Translations under genes and position numbers: made by a program
In this document: positions 34,101 to 35,742 of the stretch, one piece after another
Layout of the letters: each line of letters opens with the position of its first letter
How positions within the stretch are numbered: the first letter of the stretch is position 1
The notes under the pieces: model-generated
Databases searched by the model: none
Told to the model about the DNA's origin: nothing
The model's input: the letters and a program-made list of their open reading frames with translations, nothing else
Origin: Akkermansia muciniphila
Lineage (GTDB): Bacteria > Verrucomicrobiota > Verrucomicrobiia > Opitutales > Opitutaceae
Direction of reading: 5' to 3'
DNA length: 64,000 nucleotides
NCBI GenBank assembly: GCA_945888375.1
Contig: CAMCZZ010000014.1
Location: forward strand, 1 to 64,000

Positions 34101-34732
34101 TCTTCCGCTTTCCTCAAACGGCTCCCGATCTGGGTGTGAATTACGGGACATGGAAGGGTAACCTAGCTAACGGTGTAGCCAATGTTCGGCGGACGGCCAG
34201 TTACCGAGGTGGGGTGCGTGAGCTAACCAACGCACAGATTGATAGTCTTGCGCTAAACGTTGTGGCGACGCTCAGAGCTCGAGGTAGTCCCTTTGAATCT
34301 GTAACCCAGTTCGTGGATGCGGGAGTCCTACAAGACGCGATTGACGCGGTTGCCAGTATCAATGCGCCAAATCCCAGCAATGCTTTGCCCGAAGGGTCGG
34401 CTGCGTATCTGAGCCAAGGCGACATCCTTGAGCTTATCGGGCACCGGCTTTTTGCCCGGTCCGACACTTTTATCATTCGGGTCTATGGCGATGTGACGGA
34501 ACCCACGGTGTTTACCCGGGGTAGCGACTCCGCCCATGAAGTGCCGAAAGTGACGTCGCGCGTCTGGCTCGAGGCCACGGTGCAGCGCACTCCAATCAAA
34601 CACCCCACTGCGGATGATCCGGACGACAACATGACCCCGACCAATCCCGCCGGCGCTCCTTTGCAGGTGGGCAACTTTGGGCGGCAGTTCCGGATTCTCA
34701 GCATCCGCTGGCTGCGACCTGACGAGGTATAA
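31133..34732 (+). CDS. Verru_Chthon cassette protein A-like, 1199-residue membrane-anchored surface protein
   Basis: The start at 31133 follows the C gene stop by one nt (MPAMPLRPRSFLRVKPERGI). The N-terminus, ERGIALLVTILLLSFLVLLL then AMSSLVRVESKVAAN, is like PilX/GspK-type prepilins: Glu/Arg before a long hydrophobic stem, without a consensus FTLIE. The following 1100 residues are rich in Asn, Thr, Ser, Gly and Asp with many short beta-like stretches and no named enzyme motif. By order it is the large last protein of the cassette, a candidate adhesin or tip protein. Composition is clearly less G+C-rich than neighbours. Confidence 0.78.
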   Translation: MPAMPLRPRSFLRVKPERGIALLVTILLLSFLVLLLVAMSSLVRVESKVAANHDTVAQARQNALLGLNVALGKLQETAGPDQRITATADLVFNNPDQKNLTGVWIPGNANPITWLVNGNEDLRGQTPTISPNSASVDKTLSTTRIFDVADETITVTGHPIHSPAGLRRYDDSLPPAEIFAPGGAGVFRFGDGHVYLLGNGSLDIDPSPAEPNYPTGSVLGNSYKHAIDERVIVRKSPIIVDGAKLPGRDPGPTATPTPYTVGHYAYWVGDAGVKASLSAANRYDQVNHDDSTAAGDGVDYEVAAGAGALTPDYVARKLLNGMQLQGNRYDLLLRPGPGADDIFVSENHPSFLRDKANGTVSSVDRLLAYGIVVHPDGRDYIQRLESASQYPYLSQLLYANPAIALPNREDYEAVIGHRLKQLFHDVTPQTYGVLTNMRLGGLRYDLSYLGRAKYNAVADYNSAVTAIDADSSLSAADVNNLVSGLETFANVWRPSKVSAGQGTQPVDPSTKHGLLRLQVPLVAPPSAQFSIVGGSTSYPLVPVISELSVIGTFKSDGDGALRVGMAGEVELWNPYNAELYIPPTQSLRFNLDVVRAGTLLLQDIAVEDTGNGFSDVVSLARTLGWNGTDPDFSVTVNLTGGSPAANLRRWGPGRISKWSFTLLANDTFGLTTSALKLGGYTINASDFSINHTNAANTLLNVKLVLRNAGADSNLYSLENVILAAVGSSVQTNLFQFYLRLNEDTDYTGTAWLAQMNPLGPTVGARAGGGIDPTCSVKPIIDSGTPAAPGLDSPTTNLLLLNDTTAGATPVILADVPRQDVVGIGALRHLVVNPAASTRTNSIATKGAGNPNNIFEDFFVSTVPGDQNAWGLKSGDPLPNSSMVVFDPAPGGNSPLNDLWSGDTTPPVNPTLKGLQSEASAQYLLVKDAFNINSTSVSAWRALLGGVLPTLADNAVSHDYDWAAASFDLRANWRYFEGPGTDTTVPLRNVFFRFPQTAPDLGVNYGTWKGNLANGVANVRRTASYRGGVRELTNAQIDSLALNVVATLRARGSPFESVTQFVDAGVLQDAIDAVASINAPNPSNALPEGSAAYLSQGDILELIGHRLFARSDTFIIRVYGDVTEPTVFTRGSDSAHEVPKVTSRVWLEATVQRTPIKHPTADDPDDNMTPTNPAGAPLQVGNFGRQFRILSIRWLRPDEV

Positions 34733-34838
34733 TTGTCGGGAGCAGGGAGTTTTTTGTTTTTAAACCAAACACCGACTTTGGTCGCCGCGATCTGGCGCAA
34801 CCTGGCGGGTATCTGGGTTTAAAGGCTCCACGGCGCCG

Positions 34839-35174
34839 TGCGTCGTTGCAGCCGCCGGCTGCATCGTTGCACCGGAATCGTGCACCGTTGTTGCCGGCCG
34901 GTGCATCGATGCGGTCGGCGGGTGCATCGTTCTTGCGGCCCGGTGCATCGTTTTAACGGATTTGTGCATCGTTCCTGTCGTCCGCTGCATCGTTGTAGCG
35001 GGCCGCCGCATCGTTGTAGCCGGCCGGTGCATCGTTGTAGTCGCCGACTGCATCGTTGTTGCGGACGGCTGCATCGTTGTAGTCGCCCGGTGCATCGTTG
35101 CTGTCGGCCGGTGCATCGTTGCAGCCGGCGAGTGCATCGATGCGGTCGGCGGGTGCATCGTTCTTGTCGCGGAC
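34839..35174. repeat. Array of sixteen 21-bp tandem units
   Basis: Cores of the form TGCATCGTTG begin at 34839, 34860, 34881 and then every 21 bp without a single slip to 35154. The rest of the unit is a variable GTAGCCGGCCG-like G+C block. Units at 34902 and 35133 share GTGCATCGATGCGGTCGGCG and the following unit, showing a block duplication. Because 21 is divisible by 3 and units lack stops, several frames are open on both strands, so coding cannot be inferred. No spacers, so not CRISPR. A 21-bp period is two DNA turns, which would put every core on one face. Confidence 0.9.
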
Positions 35175-35191
35175 AGCAACCGGATCGGTTT

Positions 35192-35534
35192 AACCACGAA
35201 GGCACGAAGGGCGGAAAGTGGTTATAAGGCAGTTGCTCGCCAGGAAGCGGGCGGCGGCGCGACCTCAAGATCTTGCGGATATCGCGGAGCTTCTTAGTTT
35301 AAATCCAGATGAAGGAAGCTAAAGCGACAACCGATTGGTCCTGCGCAGGTTGGACCGAGCACGCCGTGCTTCGGCGGGAGATCGCCCGGACCATGAGCTT
35401 CGCCGACCGCTTAAAGTGGTTGGAAAGCGCAAACCGGTCCGCGCGGTGGTTGCAGGCCGCCCCCGTGGTCGAACCGCCGCCTTTCGCACGTCGCGGTAAG
35501 CAGTCAACCCTCGCGCCTTCGTGACTTCGTGGTT
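35192..35534. repeat. Inverted repeats enclosing a small gene
   Basis: AACCACGAAGGCACGAAGG (35192-35210) is repeated in inverse with one mismatch at 35516-35534. The interval holds the 71-codon gene. The words belong to the same ACGAA/ACGGA family as the repeats at 23.3 and 51.2 kb. A further related block (GCACGAAGACGCAAAGGCGC) is at 35571-35590. Confidence 0.75.
35309..35524 (+). CDS. Small conserved-looking hypothetical protein (possible orphan antitoxin)
   Basis: 71 residues: MKEAKATTDWSCAGWTEHAV, then TMSFADRLKWLESANRSARW. The pattern W..AGW.EH followed by T...RL.WLE.A recurs in many short proteins next to toxin genes, but none is adjacent here. The stop lies inside the right-hand inverted repeat, so the last 15 residues may be encoded by repeat sequence. 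Function unknown. Confidence 0.45.
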   Translation: MKEAKATTDWSCAGWTEHAVLRREIARTMSFADRLKWLESANRSARWLQAAPVVEPPPFARRGKQSTLAPS

Positions 35535-35742
35535 CGCACCGGTGCGGGAGACGACACGGATGATCTTTTGAAGCACGAAGACGCAAAGGCGCGAAGGTCC
35601 GAGGAAGATTCCGGAAATAGAAATACGCTTTAGTCCGGCCTTGGCGCCTTCCTCCTGCCTTCGGCGGTCTGGCGACCCTTTGTGGTTCCCGGTTTGTCCT
35701 TTGCCTTGCCCGGCGGGGCGGTTTGGCACGAACGTCGCGGGT

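Follow-up and report, generated by a model that had tools for sequence, protein, structure and literature searches.

A family of 21-bp palindromic repeat arrays kept in register, one of them downstream of a prepilin-type gene cassette

The window analysed here (64,000 bp, positions 1 to 64,000 of contig CAMCZZ010000014.1 of the Akkermansia muciniphila assembly GCA_945888375.1, a member of the Opitutaceae according to GTDB) carries, downstream of a cassette of prepilin-type genes, a tandem array of 21-bp units without a single indel. Intergenic tandem arrays of bacteria are generally regarded as neutral, and the question raised by this locus is what keeps such an array in register.

Composition and distribution of the arrays

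The units of the window array (Table 1) start at 34839 + 21n, the last of them at 35154, and the perfect phasing of 16 units described in the first-pass annotation is confirmed. Each unit is comprised of a 12-bp dyad core (TGCATCGTTGTA-like, with its centre between positions 6 and 7) and of a 9-bp GC-rich linker, in which a second dyad centre is located at position 17. The same annotation had described a conserved core with a varying other half; this is true of the cores, which read TGCATCGTTG exactly in 7/16 units and with one mismatch in the other 9/16, but the linker is not free to vary, having G16 in all 16 units, G13 in 14 and C18 in 13. Tandem Repeats Finder (TRF) returned five rows for the window, four of which correspond to this array and one to a weak 16-bp repeat of 2.9 copies, making the array the sole strong tandem repeat of the window, and no further row with at least 8 copies at a period of at least 10 was found in 1.21 Mb of sequence sampled from the host genome and its sister G011, a sample that includes the window. 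A two-unit pattern allowed up to 2 mismatches gave 52 matches (18 + 34) over the whole host genome, compared with 0 for the reversed, uncomplemented control.

The array is located downstream of the cassette, as had been annotated, but not directly 3' of it, since it begins 106 bp past the stop codon of the last cassette gene. The Verru_Chthon label given to the cassette is weakly backed: the match of this gene to Verru_Chthon_A (TIGR02600) covers the N-terminus only and reaches 21.8 bits for a cut-off of 332.3; a match to GspK (22.9 bits, cut-off 130) is likewise confined to the N-terminus. The leader between gene and array falls within a stretch of approximately 176 bp that recurs (82%) on the left of C37, another array in this genome, and a right border similar to that of the window array (AGCAACCGGATCGG) is found at four other arrays (C37, G011 C8 at 114811, G002 C397 and G006 C124). 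As the window and C37 arrays share both leader and right border, they are copies of each other or of a third array.

Beyond the right border lies an inverted repeat, named REP-like by eye, with arms TTTAACCACGAAGGCACGAAGG and CCTTCGTGACTTCGTGGTT separated by approximately 300 bp. It sits in a 468-bp stretch having 96% identity to the right flank of a G011 array, and the 71-aa ORF between its arms, for which zero Pfam matches were obtained, belongs to a stretch common to G011 and G002. The right ends of several arrays adjoin, or lie near, REP-like sequences starting with TTTAACC or similar: TTTAACCACGAAGGCACGAAGG in the window, C37, G011 C8, G002 C397 and G006 C124, TTTAACCGCGGATTACGCGGA after C7 and G011_C28, and a variant of it after G011_C8b. 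To judge from these shared sequences, the arrays and this class of REP-like repeats look as if they were spreading together.

Table 1. Coordinates and unit numbers of the arrays and of the features around them.
Feature	Position	Strand	Basis or remark
Last gene of prepilin-type cassette, 1243 aa	31001..34732	+	family search; upstream neighbour, outside the array family
Segment of 784 bp (leader, array, most of right flank)	34733..35516	.	opposite 18 bp at the orthologous locus of G012
Leader, 106 bp	34733..34838	.	sequence comparison
Window array, 16 contiguous 21-bp units	34839..35174	.	TRF and unit reading; dyad tests
Right border	35175..35188	.	sequence comparison
REP-like inverted repeat	35189..35534	.	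arms 35189-35210 and 35516-35534
71-aa ORF	35309-35524		between REP-like arms, right flank of window array
Other host genome arrays			C10, 20 units; C37, 16; C7, 17; C4, 17
G002 arrays			C12, C397, C85, C406, C191
G011 arrays			C8 (two, one of them G011_C8b), C28, C17
G012 array			C96
G013 array			C97
G006 array			C124, 2 units
Period-42 array, G011 contig C2	L321:2983-3270		autocorrelation
VapC-like gene and small adjacent ORF, G002 and G011	L078:6714-7641, L080:4298-5226		after the array
259-aa ORF (G002) and 280-aa ORF (G011)	L078:4824-5603, L080:6092-6934		between cassette and array
Cyanobacterial array examples	L145:4607-4781, L156:4760-4955

Searching the host genome and related genomes with patterns and profiles identified 17 arrays in 6/15 genomes of the genus, five of them in the host genome, and none in the remaining 9/15, several of which are incomplete. 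G002_C85 and G013_C97 extend up to contig ends and G002_C191 begins approximately 24 bp from one, which makes their copy counts provisional; a G013 stretch lacking a 21-bp repeat (G013:C4) and a single match to a loose pattern (G216) were left out of the array count. With a first profile model (E 0.001), 9 of the 252 genomes of the family, genus included, gave a match, the three beyond the genus being single weak ones (G020, G060 and G154; E 5e-4 to 8e-4). A second model matched 5/15 genomes of the genus and 2/288 genomes of a phylum sample, both within the genus, and no clear relative beyond the genus emerged from the family search and the phylum sample. Autocorrelation also pointed to a diverged array in G011 with a period of 42 (2 x 21) and GTCGGATAAT-like text in each unit, which the profile searches did not pick up.

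Two other identities were considered and rejected. The units are contiguous, degenerate and without spacers, unlike a CRISPR array, and a plasmid or phage origin was set aside after searches of plasmids and phages with the window sequence 34720-35620, and of viral contigs with two exact patterns, had returned no match. None of the literature titles listed describes these arrays, a statement that applies to those titles only.

Register, dyad symmetry and substitution rate

When the 17 arrays, each with 400 bp on either side, were scanned with their own weight matrices, 226 in-phase units were found together with 1 weak off-phase match, located in a flank. Over the 230 units of the 17 arrays, all 213 unit-to-unit steps are of 21 bp, with no net shift. 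Minimum spanning trees estimate approximately 848 substitutions over these steps, a count that the shortest possible tree could halve, and 30 to 119 indels would be expected at indel-to-substitution ratios of 0.035 to 0.14 (approximately 15 on the halved count at the lowest ratio). The flanks of homologous arrays show 0.09 to 0.14 short indels per substitution; as many of these indels fall within homopolymers or arise from the alignment itself, a ratio of 0.035, counted by hand, was used as well. Homologous arrays are all in phase (C7 with 17 units, G011_C28 with 15 and G011_C8b with 17), and unit-by-unit alignment of C7, G011_C28, G013_C97 and G011_C8b displays whole units gained or lost. When C7 and G011_C8b are aligned freely at base level, short gaps appear that cancel out, and because the unit-by-unit alignment is blind to gaps within units, it is net shifts that are excluded. 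A single-base difference does appear beyond the last clear unit.

The first-pass annotation had proposed to look for relatives in which phase is kept while copy number varies, and this is what was observed, the arrays ranging from 2 to 20 units. A constant spacing of whole helical turns is thus held across relatives, as in a phased array of protein-binding sites, and the drift of unit length by indels at the rate of the flanks, by which a minisatellite would be recognized, was not seen, with the qualification that several flank indels lie within homopolymers and that the matrices and models of the register test were built from in-phase units.

What the arrays have in common besides their register is a centre of symmetry. 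When the 21-bp unit is treated as a circle, its best dyad is centred between positions 6 and 7 in 17/17 arrays, with a second centre at position 17, so that the two centres are 10.5 bp, or one helical turn, apart, and each unit is an imperfect 21-bp palindrome. By column permutation the dyad is significant (p < 0.05) in 15/17 arrays, the exceptions being C10 (p 0.122) and G011_C28 (p 0.067), although the arrays are related and these tests do not represent 17 independent cases. The array cores fall into four types, TGCATCGTTG in the window type, TAGATCGTTCTA in G002, TGCTCCGTTGCA in C7 and TACTCCGGAATA in C4. The annotated argument that conservation of core and phase points to protein-binding sites is therefore retained for the phase, whereas the TGCATCG core differs even within one genome; the sites share a dyad centre instead of a recognition core. 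CG occupies positions 6-7 in 186/229 units. Between the consensus units of different arrays, pairs 2/11, 3/10 and 4/9 show joint changes of their two members, and further consensus units break these same pairs; complementarity is low at pairs 5/8 (29% of 229 units), 13/21 (23%) and 15/19 (34%), and no co-variation between the half-sites of a unit was detected within arrays.

The letters themselves change about as fast as their surroundings. Comparing C7 with G011_C28, G013_C97 and G011_C8b, 80/903 array sites differ (units aligned at 14/21 matches or more; 89/924 when a C7/G011_C8b unit with 12/21 matches is included), versus 101/1116 flank sites, the latter taken from BLAST-alignable stretches that may bias the flank rate downward and with the W/C37 and W/G011a pairs left out. 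Core and linker are alike, with 0.100 and 0.131 changes per site, respectively (61 aligned units, four pairs), and units inside an array differ on average at 4.2 to 10 of 21 positions. The letters are thus without visible constraint, and a binding site of fixed sequence is made less plausible by a substitution speed close to that of the flanks. Spacing and dyad, unlike the letters, seem to be constrained, which would place the constraint on DNA geometry.

Gain and loss of arrays, and alternative readings

The orthologue of the last cassette gene in G012 (78% identity) is followed by 18 bp and no array, at the place where the window carries its 784-bp segment. Likewise, 106 bp come after the G011 orthologue (93%) of the XerC-type gene, compared with 572 bp, including the C10 array, in the host genome. 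At a third locus the array has 5 units in G002, 4 in G011 and 2 in G006; the right-hand neighbourhood is common to the three genomes, and the cassette on the left is common to G002 and G006, the G011 contig stopping there. Arrays are gained or lost in their entirety, and within them copy number varies in steps of whole units.

The lack of an array behind the G012 orthologue means that the window array does not belong permanently to the prepilin cassette, and the annotated tie between the two has to be loosened. A boundary or recombination site that moves with the cassette is accordingly the least probable of the readings, and we consider it very unlikely. Arrays do follow prepilin-type cassettes in the window, at G002 C397 and at G006 C124, that of G011 C8 follows a gene of the kind that ends the cassette (the contig stops there), and a stretch at C37 contains the end of the cassette gene; yet no array was found in G009 or G010, in which the cassette protein has 9 and 8 matches, respectively, and other arrays sit elsewhere, adjoining an XerC-type or a BRO-type gene. 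The XerC-type gene beside C10 scores 293 bits against an XerC cut-off of 335. At the loci read (all except those of G002_C85, C406, C191, G006, G013_C97 and G011_C17) the arrays sit between ORFs of annotated size. Inspection by eye of the ORFs listed beside arrays revealed no rep or par gene; 8 + 5 proteins were checked against protein families.

Some neighbouring genes differ between copies of the locus. In G002 and G011 the array is followed by a VapC-like toxin gene with a small adjacent ORF (50.5 bits for the G011 copy, the one tested, under the cut-off of 80), where the window has a queuosine-transporter-like gene. The 259-aa and 280-aa ORFs located between cassette and array in these two genomes gave no NCBIfam match, nor did the 280-aa one give a Pfam match, Pfam having been searched for this ORF only; the window copy has no counterpart of them ahead of its array.

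Presence and absence at two orthologous sites are also what a dispersed, lineage-specific satellite without host function (a minisatellite family) would produce, its whole units multiplying by slippage or unequal recombination, its arrays spreading as naked unit blocks or with REP-like flanks, and its palindrome being maintained through template switching at quasi-palindromes or just passed on by descent. The substitution rate close to that of the flanks, the restriction of the arrays to 6/15 genomes of one genus and the flank pieces common to different sites fit this explanation, which we regard as a serious possibility. It accounts less well for a dyad that stays at one centre through four core types, and for the lack of a net shift despite the wide differences between units: units that differ so widely imply a slow turnover, during which single-base indels should accumulate like substitutions.

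The first-pass annotation had named a protein of 7-residue repeats as the alternative, and this reading is disfavoured; we consider it unlikely. Of the six frames examined for stops, that from unit position 3, which would encode [LVM]-x-R-[SC]-x-[RQ]-[PR], is free of them inside 13/17 arrays, with 5 stops seen in 16 arrays where random substitution predicts 20.4, and within-array pN/pS is below 1 in 11/12 arrays (0.49 to 0.97; 1.13 in C406; C191 was scored on the opposite strand). Most of the stop deficit is gone, however, once column composition is kept (8.4 expected), and a frame on the opposite strand has a similarly low within-array pN/pS, as the symmetry predicts. Between homologous or related arrays, nine pairs gave pN/pS values in the position-3 frame of 0.92, 0.53, 1.34, 1.20, 0.99, 0.94, 0.99, 0.94 and 2.09; the synonymous versus nonsynonymous comparison proposed for each frame leaves no frame consistently under purifying selection. 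Stops occur in G002_C397, G002_C85, G006 and the last units of C7, the upstream ends of the frame differ between unrelated arrays, and among the upstream residues read (up to 40) an M is present at C85 only. One open frame under purifying selection in all members, as a heptapeptide-repeat gene would have, was not found.

A transcribed RNA element, in which a long hairpin downstream of genes would act as terminator, 3' end stabiliser or sponge, appears about as improbable. The window and C10 arrays both lie 3' of a codirectional gene, the fold energy of 34838-35173 is low relative to dinucleotide shuffles (z -8.6 for the + strand and -7.3 for the - strand), and the window array folds better than its own column shuffles, 1/60 and 0/60 of which were as good. 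Against this, most other arrays do not beat their column shuffles, and shuffling the order of units does not consistently weaken the fold (z -1.9 to +2.2 in 22 strand tests on 11/17 arrays); as this shuffling costs little, the fold seems to be a side effect of the palindrome. No Rfam family reached its cut-off, the best being a miRNA model with 32.6 of 100 bits, and promoter and terminator scans gave nothing above chance.

A candidate docking array and its likeness to known systems

The reading that we tentatively favour, closely followed by the satellite without host function, is that a dimeric protein docks on the array, the units of which are in helical phase. A putative dimeric DNA-binding protein with a rather lax sequence preference would sit on the repeated dyads; at 21 bp, or two helical turns, all dyads would face the same side of the helix, so that neighbouring dimers could touch and bind cooperatively along the array. 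Binding strength would then be set by the number of units and by dyad and spacing, not by the exact letters, and possible outputs would be nucleoid anchoring, silencing or the control of neighbouring genes. With letters drifting at about the flank rate and spacing and dyad fixed, the arrays are naturally suited to asking whether DNA geometry can be under selection by itself. Should they be read by a protein, it would be a DNA binder lax in sequence and strict in phase, from a phylum that has received little study; otherwise, a mutational mechanism is needed that preserves register and palindrome in the absence of selection.

Arrays with the same period exist elsewhere. Among 49 loci picked by record title from 80 of the 118 loci listed, heterocystous cyanobacteria (Nostoc, Tolypothrix, Chlorogloeopsis and others) carry at least 45 arrays headed TGCATCG with 443 units, 6 to 14 in each, arrays of at least 6 units being counted (examples in Table 1). 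Six off-phase cores lie nearby, and each reading frame is open in at most 26 of these 45 arrays among the listed loci. They resemble the arrays of the genus in their 21-bp register, in having TGCATCG at the head of the unit and in a second half that varies between arrays, whereas their dyad centre lies elsewhere and is mostly not significant; as the search itself asked for TGCATCG with a 21-bp period, the result speaks for the existence of such arrays in another lineage, not for homology. A bolder extension of the docking reading, which we hold to be rather unlikely, would see genome-scattered anchoring arrays in which one multimerising protein reads the 10.5-bp dyad rhythm and no fixed sequence, sequences drifting while function stays, with the cyanobacterial 21-bp arrays as an independent invention.

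Plasmid iterons and centromeres (RepA iterons, sopC, ParR/TubR sites) are composed of tandem, frequently dyad-bearing units that span approximately two (or four) helical turns and are read cooperatively by a protein. The arrays described here are similar in their tandem units, helical-turn spacing and dyads, but differ in that several arrays with differing cores are found per genome, that no Rep or Par gene was noticed beside them, and that they are missing at orthologous sites of sister species. Bacterial minisatellites such as VNTR and MIRU loci are tandem, intergenic, lineage-restricted and variable in copy number by whole units; the present arrays share these properties (intergenic where their surroundings were read), yet keep to a single unit length across 17 arrays with four core types and have a common dyad centre. 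With REP/BIME elements they share a palindromic extragenic unit that is multiplied and dispersed through the genome, and five arrays are adjoined by the REP-like inverted repeat; unlike those elements, they consist of 21-bp head-to-tail palindromes in long, contiguous series.
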